Of a stretch of 47,646 nucleotides of DNA, positions 31,692 to 46,623 are shown piece by piece (position 1 is the stretch's first letter; each line of letters opens with the position of its first letter). The translations under genes were made by a program, and so were the position numbers. The notes under the pieces were generated by a model. It saw only the letters and a list, made by a program, of their open reading frames with translations, was not told where the DNA came from and searched no databases. Source of the DNA: a virus; the IMG/VR virus record IMGVR_UViG_3300025771_000044, positions 1-47,646 of that record. One strand, 5' to 3'.

Positions 31692-32432
31692 ATGACACCA
31701 CAAGAAAAATTTAAACGAGATAAATATGTACTTTTTGATGATGTAATATCAAAAGATATGTGCACTTTTCTAACAAACTATATGCACTTACGTAAAGATG
31801 CAGGTTATATGACTCCGCCAGTTTCAATGGGAGGAGATGATACTCAATGCCCAAAGAGTTGGAGTATTTATGGAGATCCAGCTTTTGATACGTTATTATT
31901 ACAGCTTGCTCAACCGCTATCAAATCTTTTAGGTATGCAACTAATTCCGGCATATACCTATGCACGTATTTATCAGCCTGGTGAAATTCTAGAATGGCAT
32001 AAAGATCGTCCGTCTTGTGAAATATCAGGTACAATGACGCTTGGCATGTCTAGTCCAACAGATATCTGGCCTATCTATGTAGGCAGTCCAGACTCTACAA
32101 AAGAAGAAAAAGTAGGTAATCCAATTAATATTGGGGTCGGAGAACTTATGATGTATGAAGGATGTGAAGTACCTCATTGGCGTGATGAATATACAGGCAC
32201 TTGGCAAGCTCAAGTATTTATTCACTATGTACGTGCTAATGGTCCATATGCTGCAGAGCATAGATTTGATGGACGTCCAAGTCTAGGTATTTTTAAACAC
32301 TCTGACGAGTATAAAAAGCAAACAGACAGAATTATTCAATATGCTTTAAACAAACCGAAAGAAACTTCTGTTTCAAAAACTGAACAAGTTCAAGCACAAG
32401 ACTCAATTAAACCTTTTAAATTTGAGGTATAA
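31692..32432 (+). CDS. 2OG-Fe(II) dioxygenase-like protein 1
   Basis: The 246-residue protein fits the 2-oxoglutarate/Fe(II) oxygenase fold. His103 and Asp105 in EWHKDRPSCEISGTM form the H-x-D metal pair, and His162 in CEVPHWRDEY is the likely distal His; the 2OG-binding basic residue is less clear (Arg181 follows in FIHYVRANG). The N-terminal KYVLFDDVISKDMCTFL is the usual entry segment of this family. The substrate is unknown: known family reactions include hydroxylation of proteins and modification of nucleobases. A Gln/Lys-rich tail ends in KPFKFEV. It is followed after one base by a second oxygenase, implying joint expression. Confidence 0.8.
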   Translation: MTPQEKFKRDKYVLFDDVISKDMCTFLTNYMHLRKDAGYMTPPVSMGGDDTQCPKSWSIYGDPAFDTLLLQLAQPLSNLLGMQLIPAYTYARIYQPGEILEWHKDRPSCEISGTMTLGMSSPTDIWPIYVGSPDSTKEEKVGNPINIGVGELMMYEGCEVPHWRDEYTGTWQAQVFIHYVRANGPYAAEHRFDGRPSLGIFKHSDEYKKQTDRIIQYALNKPKETSVSKTEQVQAQDSIKPFKFEV

Positions 32433-33536: not shown

Positions 33537-33982
33537 TGATTTTAGTATACATAGAGCATTTCCCTGTTAAGCTTCTTACTCCCGAGTTTCCTCGTCCACC
33601 TGAGTTTTTTAAGACTCGTCCAGAGTTTGTAGAAATGCAAAAAATTATAATTGACAGCATTCGTAAAAATGGGTTAAAATATCCATTATGTGCTAGAAAT
33701 AAAAATGATGATGGTGAGTTGTACCATGTTGGAATGGGTATGCAACGTCTAGCCGCATTAAAAGAAATGCAAGCTGATACTTGTAAAACTATAGTAGCTT
33801 GTAAAGAAGATCAACAGTTTATTCCTGTTGGAGAGTTTGTAAAAACTAAAGAACATTTAGAACAGATATTTGGTTGTCGATTACGAAAGTTTACGTTACA
33901 ACCAAACTGTTTTGAAGCACAACCAAACGAAGATCTCAAGCAATGGGATCCTATATATTTAAAGAGGGGACATAATGAGTAA
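33536..33982 (+). CDS. ParB/sulfiredoxin-like domain protein (148 aa)
   Basis: Residues about 35-90 match the ParB N-terminal (ParB/Srx) fold: IIIDSIRKNGLKYPLCA, then YHVGMGMQRLAALKEM, the strand and G-x-x-R-L-x-A-L helix that bind nucleotide in this superfamily, then TIVACKED. No helix-turn-helix follows, so it is not a complete partition protein. In phages, proteins of this fold occur among DNA-processing genes and some are nucleases or methyl-donor partners. The C-terminal part (EHLEQIFGCRLRKFTLQ) is unrecognised. The overlaps with both neighbours suggest a packaging-linked role, which is inference. Confidence 0.65.
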   Translation: MILVYIEHFPVKLLTPEFPRPPEFFKTRPEFVEMQKIIIDSIRKNGLKYPLCARNKNDDGELYHVGMGMQRLAALKEMQADTCKTIVACKEDQQFIPVGEFVKTKEHLEQIFGCRLRKFTLQPNCFEAQPNEDLKQWDPIYLKRGHNE

Positions 33983-37412: not shown

Positions 37413-38713
37413 TGGCAGGCCCTATATCTTGGATTAGAGAAAAACTAACTAGAGAAAAACTAAATCCAATTCAACCTTATCTACAAAGCCAAGAGCCCTT
37501 AATTCAACCTGATAGTAATGTAGATTTTAGAGCTGCTTATGATCAAGTTGAAATTATTCATCGCTGTATAGAGATGATTATAAACTCAGCAGTAGGTATA
37601 CCATTTGCAGTTGAAACAGGTCCAGGTGGAGGACCAGTTAAAAAAGTTAATAAACTTTTAAACGAGAGACCTAACCCCTTTGAGGATAAAATAAGATTTT
37701 TACGTCGTGGACTTTTTGATTTTTTAATTGACGGAAATGCATTTTTCTATTATGATGGTAATGATATATATATTTTACCTGCGAACGATATAGAAATCGA
37801 AACTGACGCAAAACGATTTATAAAAGGTTATACATATCTACTAAGCGGTGCAGGATCTAGTTACGACTCAGGATTTGAACCATTTGCAGGATCATCTACA
37901 GGTAGAAACAGAAGCCCTTCTACTGGAGTTAAACAAGAGACTAAAATTTACTTTGATGCTTCAGAAGTTATTCACGTAAAAGATGACAATGAAGAAAGTA
38001 TTTTTAGAGGTAAAAGTAGATTAAAAAGTTTAACAGATTTAATTAATCTATACTACGCTCTTTTAAAATTCCAAAGACAGTTCTTTAGGAATAATGCAAT
38101 TCCAGGGGTTGTTTTAACTACTGATAATGTAATGAGTGCAAAAGTAAAAGAAAGATTACTACAATCTTGGAGATCTAGTTATACTACTATTTTTGAAGGT
38201 GCTAGAAACCCTGCAATTTTAGATGGTGGACTAAAAATTGACAAGTTTAGTGATATAAATTTTCAAAACTTAGATTTTGAAAACAGTGTTGAAAGATTAC
38301 AACAAGATATGGCAAAAGCTTTAGGTGTACCATATGTCTTGTTAAAAAGCGGGAACAACGCGAATATAGCGACTAACCAGGTTTTATTTTATGAACATAC
38401 AATAATTCCAATTGTACAACAATTTGCTAGTGCGTTCGAACACTTCTTTAACTCAGTTAAGGTTAGACCAGAATTAAGAAATATACCTGCTTTACAACCA
38501 GATTTAAAAACACAAGCACAATATTTTACTTCTTTAGTAAATGCTGGAATTATAACTGCGGATGAAGCTAGAGAAAAGCTATACTTCCCTAAGTTAGAAG
38601 AAGAAGCTACAGCTAATATTAGAATACCTCAAAATATAGCAGGAAGCGCAATAAGTCCAGAACTAGGCGGTAGACCTCCTGAAGAAGATAAAACGGAGTT
38701 AACAAATGAATGA
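37412..38713 (+). CDS. Portal protein
   Basis: The 433-residue protein matches HK97-family portals, the dodecameric ring at the head vertex for DNA passage. Supporting segments are VEIIHRCIEMIINSAVGIPF near the start, the FLRRGLFDFLIDGNAFFYYD core, DASEVIHVKDDN, the long helix FQRQFFRNNAIPGVVL, LDFENSVERLQQDMAKALGVP, and the C-terminal LVNAGIITADEARE. A Gly/Ser/Arg loop at about residues 150-172 (SSTGRNRSPSTG) appears inserted in the wing. It overlaps the HNH gene by one base and the protease-capsid gene by eight. Confidence 0.92.
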   Translation: MAGPISWIREKLTREKLNPIQPYLQSQEPLIQPDSNVDFRAAYDQVEIIHRCIEMIINSAVGIPFAVETGPGGGPVKKVNKLLNERPNPFEDKIRFLRRGLFDFLIDGNAFFYYDGNDIYILPANDIEIETDAKRFIKGYTYLLSGAGSSYDSGFEPFAGSSTGRNRSPSTGVKQETKIYFDASEVIHVKDDNEESIFRGKSRLKSLTDLINLYYALLKFQRQFFRNNAIPGVVLTTDNVMSAKVKERLLQSWRSSYTTIFEGARNPAILDGGLKIDKFSDINFQNLDFENSVERLQQDMAKALGVPYVLLKSGNNANIATNQVLFYEHTIIPIVQQFASAFEHFFNSVKVRPELRNIPALQPDLKTQAQYFTSLVNAGIITADEAREKLYFPKLEEEATANIRIPQNIAGSAISPELGGRPPEEDKTELTNE

Positions 38714-41465
38714 TAAAAAATTCTTTATAAATAGTGATGATATCGAAATTAAAAGTAAAGATAGCACCACTAAGAGTAAATTTAAGATTGCAGGATATGC
38801 AAATACTAAAGATAAAGACAGGGTTGGCGATATCGTACTTCCAGAAGCATGGGCAAAAGGAGTAGAGAACTATCGTAAAAATCCTGTATTACTTTATCAG
38901 CATGATCATGGTAAACCGATTGGTAGATCAGATGTGGTTAGAGTCGATAAAAAAGGAATCTTTGTCGAAGCTTCTGTCTCAGATGCGGCAGAAAAACTAC
39001 ACGGTGTACAAACATTAATTAACGATGGAGCACTAAAAAGCTTTAGTGTTGGTTTTAGAGTTAAAGATGCGGATTTTGATAGAAACTCAGATACTTTCGT
39101 AGTTAAAGATCTAGAGTTGTTAGAAATCAGTGTAGTGAGCGTACCTGCCAATCAAGAGTCTTTATTTAGTATCAGAAAAAGTTTTGAATCTGATGAAAGC
39201 TATGAAGAATTCAAAAAACAATTCATATCTGAAAAAACTAATGAGGAGAATGAAATGACAGAAGAAGCTCAAGTAGAAGAGATTACTGAAGAAGTAATCG
39301 AATCTTCAGAAGAGGTTAAAACTTCAGAAGAAGTAGTTGAGAGTATTGAAGAGAAATCTGAAGCAGTAGTAACTGATGCAGAATCTGAAGAACTAGATAC
39401 TAAATCATCTGCTCCTGAAGTAGAAACTATTAAAGAAGAGGATGAAGAAGCTAGTTATGAAGATCCAACTAAACCTATCCCATTCTATAATATGTTAAGT
39501 GCTGAGACATCAAAACTTAATAACAACGACTTTGTTAAAATGAACGGGCAAAGATATGTAGTGACTAAAATTGCTACAGCCGAAAGCCCATCTTTTATAT
39601 TTAAAGAGGTTGACATTAACGGTAATTCCAGCGATAATACAATTAAAGTTGATGCTGTTAATTTATCTGTGGTCAATACATGGGATCTTAATACTAAGTA
39701 TGATGTTGTACTAGTAGATCATGTAGATGCTACAAATTATACAGATTCAGACAGAGAGTCTATTAAACAACAATTCGAAGAATATGTTAAAGCCTCTGAA
39801 CTAGATCTTTATTCTATGAAGAATAATGAAAAGATTAAAACAAGTGTTGAGTTACAAACAACATTAAACAACTTGATCAATCTAAAAAGCATGGAAGCCG
39901 GCTCATGGAGTGACACACACTATGGAATGGCTCAAAGATTCACTAAAACTATTAAAGCTCTAATCAACCTTCCAGAGGAAGAAGATAGAAACTTCGCTTT
40001 AAGTTTACACGGTTATCTAACCGAAGATAAGGAGAACACAAAAATGGCAACTCAAGATATTGGTGATACCATTAATGTAGAAACACAAACCCCTGCGGCT
40101 CCTGCTGTTGAAGAAAAAGCAGTCGCTCAGGTTTCAGAGCCAAGAGTAGCTGAACTAGTTAAAGAAGCTGGCACAGTTATTGAAAAGCAATCTGAAGAAA
40201 AGATTAAGGCTAATGACGAAGATCATGAAAATTCTCGTCTTGCTGAAGAACTTGCTGAACTTAGAGGTCAGATGAAAGCTTATAAAGAGCAGATTCATTC
40301 CTTTACCGAAAGCAAAATGATCTATCAGGAGAACACTCGTAGAAATACTCAGTTCTCACAGAAAGATCTATCAAATGCATATTTCCTAGCTAAAGCTCTA
40401 CGTAAGAGCCCAATGGATACAAAAATGGGTATGCGTATGAAAGACGTTGTTGCTGGTAACTCAGTTGATGCTTTCGAAAACGCCTTCTCAACAAACGTAT
40501 ACGAAGAAATGAGACAGCAGCTTGTTGTAGCTCCTCTTTTCAATCGTATTGAAGTAAATGCACGTCAATTCTCAGTTCCAGTAGCTGATGAAGATACAGA
40601 TGATGCAATTGCACAATTCGAGTCAGGTACATATACAACTGATACAAATAGCTCTGTACCAACAACTAACCAGCATCAGATTAAATCTGTTGAACTTACA
40701 CCACATAAGTTCATGGTTAAGACTCACATTGCTAAAGACGAAGAAGAAGATACAATTCTTCCGCTAGTTGACTTCTTACGTTCAGCTGCTACTCGTCGTC
40801 TAGCTCGCTTTACCGATAAGGTTCTACTTCGCGGTACAGGTGCTCTTACTGGGTTTGATGCTACTGAGTCACTCTCAGCTGGTTCAACTACAGGTGTCGG
40901 CGGTGTTGCTTCACCAATTAAAGGTGTTGTCAACCACGCTGGTGCAGTTAGTGCCCTTAACCTCTATCGTGGTGTTGGCCTAACAGGTGCCTCCGCTAAT
41001 ACTGCTAAAGCTAATGCAGCTACTGTTGCTTCAGCTCGCGGTCTAATGGGTAAATACGGACTTGCTCTAGGTGAAAACCTAGTACTTCTAACATCAGTTG
41101 AAGGTTATAATGCTTTCGTAACTGAGACTGATTTCCAGACAGTTGACAAGTTCGGTGCTCAGGCAACATACCTAACAGGTTCACTTGGAGCCATCTATGG
41201 TATCCCACTATATATTTCAGAGTTCATGGACTCAGTTTCTGGCACAGCCAACAACCGCGTCCTTGCTACAATGATTTATAAGCCTGGATTCCTAATCGGT
41301 GAGCGTCGTGCAATGGAAGTTGAAAGTGAATATCTTCCAGAGCGTCAGGTAACTGCTATGTATATGTCAACTCGTTATGACATGAAGGCACTTACAACTG
41401 TCGCATCTGCAGCACTAAGCTCAACTTATTCTTACGCTGTTAACATCCTAAGTGGTGCTGAGTAA
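38706..41465 (+). CDS. Prohead protease-scaffold-major capsid fusion
   Basis: A single 919-residue frame without stop. Residues about 25-160 are an HK97-type prohead protease: YANTKDKDRVGDIVLPEA, His66/His68 in YQHDHGKPIG, Ser114 in KSFSVGF and ELLEISVVSVPANQ. Residues about 170-250 are very acidic, followed by a domain at about 255-440 with PIPFYNML and QRYVVTKI segments that I do not recognise. From Met447 on come a delta-domain-like coiled coil (to about 560) and the HK97-fold major capsid protein. SD-preceded ATGs at 39255 and 40044 allow shorter products. It overlaps the portal gene by eight bases and is followed by a strong terminator. Confidence 0.88.
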   Translation: MNDKKFFINSDDIEIKSKDSTTKSKFKIAGYANTKDKDRVGDIVLPEAWAKGVENYRKNPVLLYQHDHGKPIGRSDVVRVDKKGIFVEASVSDAAEKLHGVQTLINDGALKSFSVGFRVKDADFDRNSDTFVVKDLELLEISVVSVPANQESLFSIRKSFESDESYEEFKKQFISEKTNEENEMTEEAQVEEITEEVIESSEEVKTSEEVVESIEEKSEAVVTDAESEELDTKSSAPEVETIKEEDEEASYEDPTKPIPFYNMLSAETSKLNNNDFVKMNGQRYVVTKIATAESPSFIFKEVDINGNSSDNTIKVDAVNLSVVNTWDLNTKYDVVLVDHVDATNYTDSDRESIKQQFEEYVKASELDLYSMKNNEKIKTSVELQTTLNNLINLKSMEAGSWSDTHYGMAQRFTKTIKALINLPEEEDRNFALSLHGYLTEDKENTKMATQDIGDTINVETQTPAAPAVEEKAVAQVSEPRVAELVKEAGTVIEKQSEEKIKANDEDHENSRLAEELAELRGQMKAYKEQIHSFTESKMIYQENTRRNTQFSQKDLSNAYFLAKALRKSPMDTKMGMRMKDVVAGNSVDAFENAFSTNVYEEMRQQLVVAPLFNRIEVNARQFSVPVADEDTDDAIAQFESGTYTTDTNSSVPTTNQHQIKSVELTPHKFMVKTHIAKDEEEDTILPLVDFLRSAATRRLARFTDKVLLRGTGALTGFDATESLSAGSTTGVGGVASPIKGVVNHAGAVSALNLYRGVGLTGASANTAKANAATVASARGLMGKYGLALGENLVLLTSVEGYNAFVTETDFQTVDKFGAQATYLTGSLGAIYGIPLYISEFMDSVSGTANNRVLATMIYKPGFLIGERRAMEVESEYLPERQVTAMYMSTRYDMKALTTVASAALSSTYSYAVNILSGAE
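39242..39257 (+). promoter_or_regulatory. Internal SD and ATG before the acidic middle domain
   Basis: TGAGGAG (39242-39248) lies six bases before an in-frame ATG at 39255 (Met184), just after the protease domain. Initiation here would give a protease-free scaffold-plus-capsid product of 736 residues. It may instead be the fossil start of a once separate gene. Confidence 0.5.
40044..41465 (+). CDS. Major capsid protein from internal start (nested)
   Basis: An in-frame ATG at 40044 (Met447 of the long frame) follows AAGGAG at 40029-40034, nine bases away. It gives a 473-residue product of ordinary length for an HK97-type capsid protein with its delta domain. The N-terminal part is acidic and helical (VSEPRVAELVKEAG, RLAEELAELRGQMKAYKEQ). 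The fold core starts near TNVYEEMRQQLVVAPLFNRIEV, with HKFMVKTHIAKDEEEDT (E-loop/spine region) and the C-terminal MYMSTRYDMKALTTVAS. Phe codons here are mostly TTC (14 of 17 by my count), against 4 of 12 in the protease part, as expected for the most abundant protein. Confidence 0.75.
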   Translation: MATQDIGDTINVETQTPAAPAVEEKAVAQVSEPRVAELVKEAGTVIEKQSEEKIKANDEDHENSRLAEELAELRGQMKAYKEQIHSFTESKMIYQENTRRNTQFSQKDLSNAYFLAKALRKSPMDTKMGMRMKDVVAGNSVDAFENAFSTNVYEEMRQQLVVAPLFNRIEVNARQFSVPVADEDTDDAIAQFESGTYTTDTNSSVPTTNQHQIKSVELTPHKFMVKTHIAKDEEEDTILPLVDFLRSAATRRLARFTDKVLLRGTGALTGFDATESLSAGSTTGVGGVASPIKGVVNHAGAVSALNLYRGVGLTGASANTAKANAATVASARGLMGKYGLALGENLVLLTSVEGYNAFVTETDFQTVDKFGAQATYLTGSLGAIYGIPLYISEFMDSVSGTANNRVLATMIYKPGFLIGERRAMEVESEYLPERQVTAMYMSTRYDMKALTTVASAALSSTYSYAVNILSGAE

Positions 41466-41485: not shown

Positions 41486-41529
41486 AAAAAGGGGATGTGG
41501 GCCTCCAGCCCCATCCCCTTTTATTTTTT
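41486..41529 (+). terminator. Strong intrinsic terminator after capsid gene
   Basis: AAAAGGGGATG (41487-41497) pairs perfectly with CATCCCCTTTT (41512-41522), extended after a bulged T by GGGC/GCCC around a CTCCA loop, and is followed by six T (41524-41529). The hairpin begins 21 bases after the capsid stop. It should reduce expression of the connector and neck genes relative to capsid. Confidence 0.9.
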
Positions 41530-41539
41530 GGAGAATTCG

Positions 41540-42805
41540 ATGCTTGTAACGCTTCTTGAAATAAAAGAGTTTTTAAAAATTAAGTTAGATAATGATTCCG
41601 AAGACGATAGATTAAATTCTATTAATACTTATGTATCGTCTCTCGTAGAGTCTTATTGTGGTAGGGTTTTTTCTTCTAATACCTATACTGAATATTTTGA
41701 TGGAGGAATATCCTCCGTCTTTATTAAAAATCCACCAATTATTAGTGTTAATGAAGTATCTCAGTATCTTGGAGAGAAATATTCAGCGCTCGGAGGACCA
41801 GGTCCTTCTGGAGAGCAAATTGAATTAGAAGGTACAAGTCATACAGTTTCTACTATTGGAAATGCAAAAACAACTAAAAGAATTAAAAAATATGGAACAT
41901 CTAGTCTAACTTTAGATGGGTCTGGTGATTATTTAAGTATTGGGTCTTCAACTGATTTTGACTTTGATTCAGAGCCTTTTACTATTGAACTTTATACTAG
42001 ACCAAAAGCTTTAACTGATCATTGTTTGGTATCTAGAGTAGATGACTCTTCTAACTATTGGGAACTATCTTATGACGAAACTAACGGTATATATTTTAAA
42101 ACAGTAGAGGATGGAACTGAAACCACATATATAGAAGGTGCTACCTTAACAGCCAATACATTTACACATATTGCAGTCGTAAGAAGTGATTCTGAGTATA
42201 AAATATTTAAAGATGGATCTCAGGTTGGAGATACAGTCACATCTTCTAATGCAGTACCAACACTAAGTTCTTCTGTTGAAATTGGTAGAATTAATTTAAC
42301 ATCTAACAAAAATTATAAAGGTAATTTAGATGAACTAAGAGTTTCTTGGATAGATAGATATTCCGCTAACTTTACTACTTTAACAAATCCTTTTAGTTCT
42401 GATGAAGATACTAAACTGTTATTACATTTTAACGAAGGACAAAACAAAACAGAAATTATAGACTTCTCTAGAAAAGTAAATGAGTATATGTGGTACGCTG
42501 AAACTGGAGAGATAAATTTTGATGCTGGTAGAGGCGGAGGAACTCCTCGTTTAGGATTCTTTAATCCTAGACAGTTTCAAAACTTTGCTAACGGTGTAAA
42601 AGTTAATTATACTGGAGGCTATGTAAGTGTACCTGCAGATTTAAAACTAGCTGCACTAGAAATGGTTAAAGTACTTTACAAAGGTAGATCAGGTGTTTCT
42701 TCTGCTAGATTAGCTGGTGATGATTCTGTAGCACATGAGCTTTCTATGGATGGATTTCCTCCTCAAATAAGACGAGTGTTAAATCTTTATAGGTTGCCTA
42801 TATAA
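41540..42805 (+). CDS. Head-tail connector with inserted LamG domain
   Basis: The ATG at 41540, preceded by GGAG right after the terminator T-run, is the likely start (421 residues). Residues 1-80 (LLEIKEFLKIKL, SLVESYCGR, KNPPIISVNEVSQYL) and 311-421 (FANGVKVNYTGGY, VPADLKLAALEMVKVLYKGR) together form a gp6-like connector of HK97-type phages. Between them, at about 105-305, sits a LamG domain: SLTLDGSGDYLSIG, EPFTIELYTRP, FTHIAVVRSDSEYKIFKDG, YKGNLDELRVSWIDRY and TKLLLHFNEG. The insertion lies between the two parts of the connector, so the LamG would project from the neck. Ordinary connectors of this family are about 100 residues long. Confidence 0.82.
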   Translation: MLVTLLEIKEFLKIKLDNDSEDDRLNSINTYVSSLVESYCGRVFSSNTYTEYFDGGISSVFIKNPPIISVNEVSQYLGEKYSALGGPGPSGEQIELEGTSHTVSTIGNAKTTKRIKKYGTSSLTLDGSGDYLSIGSSTDFDFDSEPFTIELYTRPKALTDHCLVSRVDDSSNYWELSYDETNGIYFKTVEDGTETTYIEGATLTANTFTHIAVVRSDSEYKIFKDGSQVGDTVTSSNAVPTLSSSVEIGRINLTSNKNYKGNLDELRVSWIDRYSANFTTLTNPFSSDEDTKLLLHFNEGQNKTEIIDFSRKVNEYMWYAETGEINFDAGRGGGTPRLGFFNPRQFQNFANGVKVNYTGGYVSVPADLKLAALEMVKVLYKGRSGVSSARLAGDDSVAHELSMDGFPPQIRRVLNLYRLPI

Positions 42806-44767: not shown

Positions 44768-46060
44768 ATGGCTAATTGCGGTCCTAATACACAGATTAAC
44801 CTTCAGAGAAATACTGAAGTGTTTTGGTCAACAATTGACTTAAATGGTGGTGGTCTTTCATCAAGCATGAAACCTACTAACACATGGAGAGTCGAAGTCT
44901 TGGCTGGTTATGCATTCAACCAGAGTGCTGCTAATCAGGACATCACAACTCTTGAATCAGGTAATACACCTGATAGATCAACCCAAAGATTTAATACATC
45001 AGTTAATCCTGTTGAGTGGAGCTTCACAACTTACATTCGTCCAACAGGAATGATTGCAACTGACGGTTCTGATTCTCAAACTGGTAATTCAAAGCCAGTT
45101 GCAGATTGGTTCTTATGGCAGTCAATGATGTCAAACACTGCACCAGCAGCTAGTGGTGCTGAGACATCATCATGGGAAAACAATGGTATCTTCCATCTAA
45201 AGCATAGAGGTTTTGCAGACGCTGCTGACATTGGTGAGTCATCTAATGCTAACGTTACAGCTCATAGCTCAAACTTCCCATCAATGAATGAATACTCACT
45301 TTACTTTAAAGTTGATAATGTTGTTTATCAGGTTGGTCAGGCTGCTGTTAACGAAGCTACAGTTGATGCTGCTATTGATACAATCGCATCAACATCATGG
45401 AGTGGGTTTGGTACAAACCTTTACGAACTTACAGGTTCAACAAGAGACGAAGCTATCTCAGTATTTGGTGGTACATTGAATTCTGGAACATCAACTGCTG
45501 CTAACTCAACAATTGATGCTAATGGAGCTGCTGGTCAGCACTATCATCCATTTGGTTCTTCAAACGTTGCTGGTTCAGCTACAACAGCTGCCTTCATTAA
45601 GAACCGTCTAAGCTCAATTAATGTTGTATCTGCTGCATCTGGTGCTGCTAAGTCTTATACTTTCCCAGTAACAGGATTAAGCTGGTCTTACAACAACAAT
45701 GCAACATATCTAACACCTGAAGAACTTGCTGCTCTTAATACACCAATTGGTCAGTTCACAGGTTCAAGATCAGTTACAGGTAACTTTACTGCATATCTAC
45801 GTGCAGGAGCTAACCAGTCAGCTGAGTTCCTAAGAGATATTGTTGGTAATACTTCAACTCAAACAACTGGAGCAAGTGCTAACCTACAAATCGGTGGTAC
45901 AACTGCACCATATTTCGCACTAAATATGGAATCAGTCCAGTTTGACTTCCCATCACATTCAATTGATGATGTGGTTGGAATCACAGTTGACTTCCTCGCA
46001 CAGGAAACAGATCCAACTTGCGGTGATGAAGTCACAATTTTTGCTTCAGAAGTAAGCTAA
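44768..46060 (+). CDS. Major tail tube protein
   Basis: A 430-residue protein just before the tail chaperones, with an AAGGAG SD. It contains two strand motifs of similar form, NPVEWSFTTYIRPTG (about residue 80) and GSRSVTGNFTAYLRAG (about residue 335), and ends SIDDVVGITVDFLAQETDP, a pattern typical of tail tube C-termini. The two motifs raise the possibility of two tube-type domains in one chain, as in T5. The position, length and single copy before the frameshifted chaperones make it the tube protein. A noncoding structured stretch follows its stop. Confidence 0.8.
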   Translation: MANCGPNTQINLQRNTEVFWSTIDLNGGGLSSSMKPTNTWRVEVLAGYAFNQSAANQDITTLESGNTPDRSTQRFNTSVNPVEWSFTTYIRPTGMIATDGSDSQTGNSKPVADWFLWQSMMSNTAPAASGAETSSWENNGIFHLKHRGFADAADIGESSNANVTAHSSNFPSMNEYSLYFKVDNVVYQVGQAAVNEATVDAAIDTIASTSWSGFGTNLYELTGSTRDEAISVFGGTLNSGTSTAANSTIDANGAAGQHYHPFGSSNVAGSATTAAFIKNRLSSINVVSAASGAAKSYTFPVTGLSWSYNNNATYLTPEELAALNTPIGQFTGSRSVTGNFTAYLRAGANQSAEFLRDIVGNTSTQTTGASANLQIGGTTAPYFALNMESVQFDFPSHSIDDVVGITVDFLAQETDPTCGDEVTIFASEVS

Positions 46061-46063
46061 ATA

Positions 46064-46185
46064 ATTCATGTCGAGGGGGTCATGAATGAATAATAACTGT
46101 GAGACAGCTATCCTTAACACGCAACAGTACCCCCTCGCTGATTGTAAGTTAGATACGATAGCTGTCTCTTCATTTTAAGGAGGGG
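46064..46185 (+). ncRNA. Interlocked inverted repeats; candidate pseudoknot leader
   Basis: The 131-base gap holds four perfect arms in the order A, B, A', B': CGAGGGGGT (46072-46080) with ACCCCCTCG (46129-46137), and GAGACAGCTATC (46101-46112) with GATAGCTGTCTC (46157-46168). ACTGT (46096-46100) and ACAGT (46124-46128) extend the first helix and place B in its loop, an H-type pseudoknot. Arm A is also in the loop of an ATTCATG/CATGAAT hairpin (46064-46087). CCCCTC within A' (46131-46136) can pair with GAGGGG of the SD (46180-46185). I infer a translational or attenuation control element for the chaperone gene; no known class is recognised. Confidence 0.7.
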
Positions 46186-46191
46186 AAACCT

Positions 46192-46623
46192 ATGAGTATG
46201 ATTAAAAATTTAATGATTGAAGAAAAAATCATTGAAGTAGAATTTCCAGACAGTGATGGTTTTTTAGTAAAACTATCCTATGTCGGACGTGACAAGCTAA
46301 TGAAGATCCGTAATCGTGCATTAGTTTTTAAGTTTAATAAACGCACACGTCAACGTGAAGAAGAAGTCGATAACGATAAGTTTTTGGAAGAGTATTCAAG
46401 AGAAGTTATTCGTGGATGGAAAGGTCTTACAATTCGTGAACTAGCCCGCATTCTTCCAATTGACACAGCAGGTGCTGATATGACTAAGGATGTTCCTTAC
46501 TCAGAAGAAGATGCACTAGAGCTATTAAAGAATTCAACTATTTTTGATCAGTTTGTTACAGACTGTATGAATGATTTTGAAATCTTTGAGAGAGATGCTA
46601 TAGAGGTGTCGGAAAAAAACTAA
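46192..46623 (+). CDS. Tail assembly chaperone, short product (gpG-like)
   Basis: This 143-residue product begins six bases after a strong AAGGAGGGG SD. It has a beta-rich N-terminal half (IIEVEFPDSDGFLVKLSYVG) and a helical rest (KIRNRALVFKFNKRTRQREEE, FEIFERDAIEVSEKN). By position between tail tube and tape measure it is the counterpart of lambda gpG, which coats the tape measure protein during tail assembly. The frame ends with TAA directly after the slippery site A AAA AAC. Confidence 0.88.
   Translation: MSMIKNLMIEEKIIEVEFPDSDGFLVKLSYVGRDKLMKIRNRALVFKFNKRTRQREEEVDNDKFLEEYSREVIRGWKGLTIRELARILPIDTAGADMTKDVPYSEEDALELLKNSTIFDQFVTDCMNDFEIFERDAIEVSEKN

Follow-up and report, generated by a model that had tools for sequence, protein, structure and literature searches.

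The window, as we call the whole 47,646-nt stretch of viral DNA analyzed here, carries a tail gene locus in the order tube, structured element, chaperone and tape measure (Table 1). The tail-tube protein is about 30% identical to its T5-family relatives. The gap between the tube and chaperone genes is 131 nt long, and the first hairpin, P1, starts 4 nt 3' of the tube stop codon. Tailed phages need many tube subunits and few tape-measure and chaperone proteins from these adjacent genes, and the setting of the ratio is known in few systems.

The 3' end of the chaperone gene has its own feature, a slippery heptamer (A AAA AAC, 46614-46620) right before the stop codon (GAA AAA AAC TAA). This is the classical -1 frameshift site of a G/GT-type tail chaperone pair. 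AAAAAAC was found before the chaperone stop in 43 of 52 representative loci (defined below), and G-rich runs (e.g. GGGGGGA) were present in several others.

Table 1. Genes and RNA features at the tube/chaperone junction of the window
Feature	Position	Strand	Remarks
Major tail (tube) protein gene, 430 aa	44768..46060	+	PHROG 3575 major tail protein, E 1.9e-52; directly upstream of the element
Whole element	46058..46175	+	Covariance model R1: 49.4 bits, E 3.9e-8; sole match in the window
P1 hairpin	Stem 46064-46070 ATTCATG / 46081-46087 CATGAAT; loop 46071-46080	+	Perfect 7-bp repeat
Kissing arm A, in P1 loop; CGAGGGGGT	46072..46080	+	9 bp with 46129-46137
P2 5' strand (B); GAGACAGCTATC	46101..46112	+	12 bp with B'
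P2b 5' strand, TTAAC	46114..46118	+	Pairs with GTTAG 46148-46152
P3 hairpin, CAACAG 46122-46127 / CTGATTG 46138-46144	46122..46144	+	A46141 bulged; A' in apical loop
Kissing arm A', in P3 apical loop; ACCCCCTCG	46129..46137	+	CCCCTC core invariant
P2b 3' strand, GTTAG	46148..46152	+	Clade alignments A8, A9
P2 3' strand (B'); GATAGCTGTCTC	46157..46168	+	Pairs with B
U-rich tract; TTCATTTT	46169..46176	+	Directly 3' of P2; terminator-like
Chaperone Shine-Dalgarno (SD); AAGGAGGGG	46177..46185	+	GAGGGG 46180-46185 complementary to A' core
Tail assembly chaperone gene, 143 aa	46192..46623	+	PHROG 313, E 5.3e-13; first gene downstream of the element

Two perfect helices, A/A' of 9 bp and B/B' of 12 bp, had been noticed in the gap in the interlocked order A-B-A'-B', and both are present. 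The preliminary description had also held that 21 bp of perfect pairing in a 131-nt gap is unlikely to be chance. This was borne out by dinucleotide shuffles of the gap: a perfect helix of at least 12 bp appeared in 0 of 3000, and interlocked perfect helices with a total of 21 bp likewise in none. The region folds with z = -2.86 against shuffles. The pseudoknot deduced from these helices stood as far as the interleaving of A/A' and B/B' is concerned, but it is not a simple one, because the 7-bp stem of P1 holds A. A simple H-type pseudoknot would need a loop pairing with a single-stranded flank. Here both partners sit in hairpin loops, A in that of P1 and A' in that of P3, which makes the contact a kissing loop between two hairpins.

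A third helix (ACTGT/ACAGT) proposed at the same time had to be given up. It is lost in a 93%-identical relative (L002; ACTAT/ACAGT) and in others, and in the conserved fold its ACAG belongs to P3 (CAACAG/CTG-a-TTG). A pairing of TCCTTAA with TTAAGGA over the SD (46111-46117/46175-46181) was likewise set aside, as it was seen in the window and L002 only. An HDV-like nested pseudoknot ribozyme, hinted at by the A-B-A'-B' order, was rejected on its unfit spacing and the lack of an Rfam match.

Homologous loci were collected by a chaperone search of IMG/VR, which gave about 200 (201). The fully readable gaps among them comprised 105 distinct sequences of 120-156 nt, and a subset of 52 representatives was used for the shuffle, U-tract, SD and duplex counts. 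The element was found in all 105: P1 with its GAGGGG loop, P2, P3 with its CCCCTC loop, a U-rich stretch, an SD and the start codon. The core of arm A was GAGGGG in 104 of them, the exception being L124 (GGGGGG). P2 was 10-17 bp long throughout and beat all 100 dinucleotide shuffles in 49 of the 52 representatives. The P1 stem was better than shuffles (p<=0.05) in 36. In most homologues the structured RNA starts 0-12 nt after the tube stop. P2b has analogues in other clades (UUGC/GCAG, CGAC/GUCG and UUAAC/GUUGA), and two internal loops are conserved, a GAT bulge between P2 and P2b and an A-rich loop between P2b and P3.

The covariance model R1 was built from a 19-sequence subset with the window's own clade left out. 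It recovered every held-out clade at the tube/chaperone locus only, the weakest with an E of 3e-4. Twelve long records of 53-174 kb contained one copy each, and no second copy was found in them or, with R1, in the window. A motif scan of IMG/VR that was independent of proteins returned at least 120 stretches. Of its 76 newly fetched matches, 75 lay at the tube/chaperone locus (74 confirmed by the chaperone and 1 cut off inside it), and the remaining one was a chance G+C-rich match. The element is thus common to a large group of uncultured phages that are distantly related to T5.

One 5-kb contig binned in a SAR86 cluster MAG (L210; LUQU01000016.1) had the same tail locus and element, and the element was absent from 273 other genomes of that contig's class. 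This is a weak hint to SAR86 as a host and could be a binning error.

Covariation in the A/A' and B/B' helices of relatives, which had been suggested as a check, was decisive. P2 was counted on a model-based alignment (A6) of 57 rows, 53 of them true homologues and four weak antisense matches that mirror the hairpins, because the MAFFT alignment A4 shifts P2 by one base between clades. Both-side changes were found at 11/11 pairs of P2, with 98.6% of the cells paired. The whole-structure covariation score was 0.734 in A6, against 0.284 +/- 0.013 in shuffles and at most 0.196 for slid partners.

The stem of P1 shifts between clades and was therefore tested by shuffles and within clades, not in one joint alignment. 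In the L016-type clade, where P2 is nearly invariant, 8 of 10 pairs showed both-side changes and 99.2% of the cells were paired; in the window's own clade both-side changes were seen at 4/10 pairs. P2b was 100% paired in A8 and A9, with one both-side change (C-G to U-A) in A9. In a loose alignment of all clades P3 was 79.1% paired with 7/7 pairs doubly changed, and in the clade alignments it was 98-100% paired.

The kiss core, GAGGGG/CCCCTC, is invariant and so is uninformative on pairing by itself; the evidence comes from its flanks. These were counted by the GAGGGG/CCCCTC anchors, as the MAFFT alignment A8 misregisters the kiss for L007, L008 and L012. Flank position +6 could pair in 94/105 sequences against 81.9 expected, and position +7 in 76/105 against 38.9; in neither case did any of 1000 shuffles reach the observed value. 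The extended A/A' helix averaged 9.42 bp with its own partner and 8.42 bp with swapped partners (0/2000 permutations). Relatedness is not corrected for in these shuffle controls, but it has no bearing on compensations seen in separate clades. Compensatory changes of both partners separate the near relatives L147/L148 (A-U to G-C) and L126/L132 (U-A to A-U). Others were found in L088/L016 (C-G to U-A), L010/L007 (U-A to G-C) and, at position -1, the window and L015 (C-G to U-A).

The pairing of P1, P2, P2b, P3 and A/A' is therefore real, and the element almost certainly consists of two hairpins, P1 and P2-P2b-P3, joined by the A/A' loop-loop kiss; all helices are probably folded simultaneously. 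In agreement with the first reading of the sequence, the change from tube gene to chaperone gene is the site of a structured RNA under selection, whose A/A' and B/B' helices are conserved and covary. Stems that drift beside frozen kissing loops make it a clean natural example of selected tertiary RNA pairing. That the structure is one of the mRNA strand follows from its G-U pairs and from where the U tract and SD lie.

P2 is followed by a U-rich tract. The 8 nt after it contained a mean of 5.5 T in the 52 representatives, against 2.3 expected from a gap content of 0.29 per base. At least 4 T were present in 98/105 sequences and at least 5 T in 81/105, and T runs shorter than 4 were found in 15/52 representatives. 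The tract varies by clade, from a textbook CCC-TTTTTT in some to the weak tracts of L129 (ACCTTATG) and L084 (ACCTTTAC). As in an intrinsic terminator, P2 is a stable stem with a G+C-rich base. In place of the short loop (3-8 nt) of a terminator it carries a structured apical region of about 40 nt, and a terminator scan made no call at the element. The distance from the end of P2 to the chaperone start codon is 18-36 nt, which is outside or at the edge of the 30S footprint. This suggested that the stem can stay folded while the 30S subunit binds and the chaperone is translated.

Among cultured phages the relatives are T5-like (Demerecviridae), and their chaperones are 25-36% identical. The element is absent from them. 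A minor tail gene lies between their tube and chaperone genes, and in the records read the gaps were of a few bases. Uncultured outgroup clades with the tube-chaperone order were also found (L217-L228, L231-L237, L241, L242, L244 and L261), and the upstream gene was a major tail protein in all four tested. Their gaps, of 46-86 nt, contain a single strong hairpin of 9-13 bp, followed by a T run in some (CTTCTTTTT, CTCTTTTTT) and by none in others. Some outgroups among L217-L228, L232-L237, L241, L242, L244 and L261 had no recognisable SD before the chaperone gene. A hairpin at this boundary is thus a shared solution, and the kissing form the elaborate version of it in the window's clade. Together with the U-rich tract after P2, these simple hairpins point to control at the level of the transcript, which was absent from the preliminary description. 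Termination cannot be the sole output, since the U tract is weak in some clades and some outgroup hairpins lack a U run.

We interpreted the element as an intercistronic attenuator or 3'-end protector, clamped by the kiss, that fixes how strongly the tube gene is expressed relative to the genes downstream, and give this reading a probability of about one half. The functions that we infer, namely termination or protection, an effect on the tube-to-chaperone ratio and coupling to tube translation, could come about as follows. The cis-acting intercistronic RNA would fold as the transcript emerges. P1 would form first, right after the tube stop codon, and P2-P2b-P3, a long and imperfect hairpin, next; the CCCCUC of its apical loop would kiss the GAGGGG of the P1 loop and so clamp the long hairpin. 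The clamped hairpin would stop some polymerases at the U tract and/or block 3'-5' exonucleases. Tube mRNA would then accumulate, and a smaller share of the transcripts would carry the chaperone and tape-measure genes. The P1 loop lies 8-26 nt 3' of the tube stop. A ribosome that terminates on the tube gene can reach this far and could open P1 and the kiss, so that tube translation may modulate the hairpin.

Hairpins that separate differently needed genes of an operon are a documented means of control, and those of malE-malF and puf protect the mRNA (PMC5927463). The phage element is, like these, a stable conserved hairpin between genes for an abundant and a scarce product in one operon. In E. 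coli malE-malF and R. capsulatus pufBA-LMX the stable hairpin likewise has the same orientation, with the more-needed gene upstream (PMC5927463). Those hairpins are plain, whereas the phage element adds a second hairpin clamped loop to loop and a conserved loop sequence. Intrinsic (Rho-independent) terminators and attenuators share with it a G+C-richer stem, here of 10-17 bp, and then, in most of the sequences, a U-rich tract on the same strand. Unlike them, the element has its apical region with P2b, P3 and the kissing loop, the U tract is weak in some clades, and the downstream genes must be expressed. The size of the apical region is unusual for an intrinsic terminator and counts against the attenuator reading. 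The strict invariance of GAGGGG/CCCCTC beside other helices that drift suggests a further partner (the SD, 16S rRNA or a protein), which the attenuator model does not need.

If that partner is the SD, the element would be a translational switch, which we regard as a possible but less favored alternative. A' would be an anti-SD mimic and A an SD mimic. In the kissing state the chaperone SD would be free; once P1 is opened, as might be done by ribosomes that finish the tube gene, A' would pair with the SD and chaperone translation would stop. A form of this switch had been put forward in the preliminary description. The part that held is the 6-bp complement between CCCCTC (46131-46136) and GAGGGG, together with an enrichment of this SD. 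GAGGGG was contained in the chaperone SD of 79/105 distinct sequences, and it served 36 of the 52 representatives' chaperones against 2 of 126 other ORFs of the same loci, where AGGAG dominated. In these cases the chaperone SD repeats the sequence of the P1 loop and is a complement of A'. The predicted SD/A' duplex had a mean of -12.9 kcal/mol, and the position of the P1 loop behind the tube stop is suitable. Arm A provides the exclusive alternative partner that an SD-sequestering switch calls for, as it pairs the same CCCCTC in 105/105 sequences. Cores of A and A' that stay frozen while the other helices drift would also be expected if the SD is held constant by the ribosome and in turn constrains A' and A.

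On the other hand, the proposed coupling of A' to the SD failed in its evolution. The flanks of SD and A', unlike those of A and A', do not coevolve: own partners gave 6.33 bp and swapped ones 6.48, with 1954 of 2000 permutations at least as good, and an A in the SD flank faces C in 54 of the 79 GAGGGG-SD sequences. An anti-SD complement kept in 79/105 only is neither conserved nor coevolving as such a switch would require. The kiss is kept with a reduced or lost SD complement in the L016 clade (GAGAGG), the L041 clade (TGAGG) and locus L229 (AAAAGGAAA), and A/A' was predicted to be stronger than SD/A' in 46/52 representatives. The switch stays a serious rival because partners free to pair in any sequence would not account for the frozen A/A' core. 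One possible reason is a three-way constraint, with the SD held by 16S rRNA, A' by the SD and A by A'; another is a bound protein. The same SD motif at 33964-33969 serves the gene starting at 33975. The window's only CCCCTC on the plus strand is that at 46131, which leaves this second SD without a comparable partner in its vicinity.

T runs of at least 4 followed P2 in 16/16 representatives with other SDs and in 21/36 with GAGGGG. This suggested that lineages may use either the SD or the terminator as the output, and the independent clades behind these counts are few. The two outputs could be combined in one device. The C-rich, anti-SD-mimic loop would be shared between the SD-mimic hairpin loop and the real SD, ribosomes terminating on the tube gene would open the first hairpin, and the level of tube translation would determine how much chaperone and tape measure is expressed, some lineages using SD masking and others the terminator. 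We consider this combination speculative and somewhat doubtful.

Switches between an SD and its complement operate in the mRNAs of hok/sok and of the ColIb-P9 repZ pseudoknot. Such competition is also known in the aapA3 toxin mRNA of Helicobacter pylori (PMC6733600). A C-rich SD complement with a competing G-rich partner upstream is common to all of these and the phage element. In the latter, unlike in these switches, the competition is not found in all lineages, and no antisense RNA or leader peptide is known.

Processing is an unlikely explanation. A host or phage RNase III-like enzyme would cut P2-P2b-P3, and the tube and chaperone mRNAs would then decay differently. With about 23 stacked pairs in total, interrupted by internal loops, P2, P2b and P3 match phage RNase III sites such as those of T7 in size, and the outgroup hairpins lacking a U run at the same junction would fit cleavage as well. 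The outgroup stems are too modest for this reading at just 9-13 bp, and RNase III cutting needs neither the kiss nor its invariant sequence. Rather improbable, too, is a feedback of tail assembly on expression through a small ligand or a protein (e.g. the chaperone, or tube protein not yet assembled) that binds the kissing complex. The invariant kissing sequence, the conserved internal loops and the exclusive place beside the tube gene are consistent with it. The invariant residues of the RNA are confined to the kiss, however, and can be accounted for with no ligand at all.

Recoding, in which the structure close behind the stop would cause readthrough or frameshifting and extend the tube protein, is very improbable: the start of the structured RNA 0-12 nt past the stop would suit it, but no frame is kept open through the gap (stop codons were found in 99/105 gaps for frame 0 and in 105 and 102 for the two others), and the gap length is not kept modulo 3 (43/36/26). 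The chance of a DNA-level element (a recombination, packaging or replication site) is negligible. Inverted repeats can form DNA cruciforms, but here G-U pairs have been retained on the strand of the mRNA, P2 is followed on that strand by the U tract and SD in every case, and the element lies between this one pair of genes throughout.

Tertiary pairing near a ribosome binding site is also found in another phage transcript, the gene 32 mRNA of T4 and T2, whose H-type pseudoknot operator at the 5' end is bound by the gene product. The phage tail element differs from it in that two hairpins kiss, the site is an intercistronic gap and a U tract is present. Structured RNAs known mainly from marine metagenomes and phages include manA, wcaG and PhotoRC-II (PMC2864571). 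These belong to cyanophage metabolic or photosystem genes and are in Rfam, whereas the tail element had no Rfam match: a search of Rfam 15 with the window and 17 homologous loci gave 0 matches at the gathering threshold and only chance matches at E 0.1-1. No description of such an element was found in the literature searched, which was mostly outside subscription papers; the motifs compared were those in Rfam, where some (e.g. Ocean-VI, PMC2864571) were never deposited. The intercistronic hairpin, terminator-like tail, kissing loops and SD complement are known ingredients; their combination, conservation and place are, to our knowledge, new. A widespread and strongly selected RNA without an Rfam entry, exactly at the tube/chaperone boundary, offers a testable handle on stoichiometry control in uncultured aquatic phages.

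Elsewhere in the window, the ORF at 38706-41465 (919 aa) is a protease-capsid fusion, with a prohead protease (Peptidase_S78) at residues 12-156 and the major capsid domain (Phage_capsid) at residues 592-895. A head-tail connector or head completion protein with an inserted concanavalin-type lectin domain (Laminin_G_3) is encoded at 41495-42805. The ORF at 31692-32432 matched PHROG 2954 'ferrochelatase' (E 5.8e-43) and no Pfam family, and is a possible auxiliary metabolic gene.
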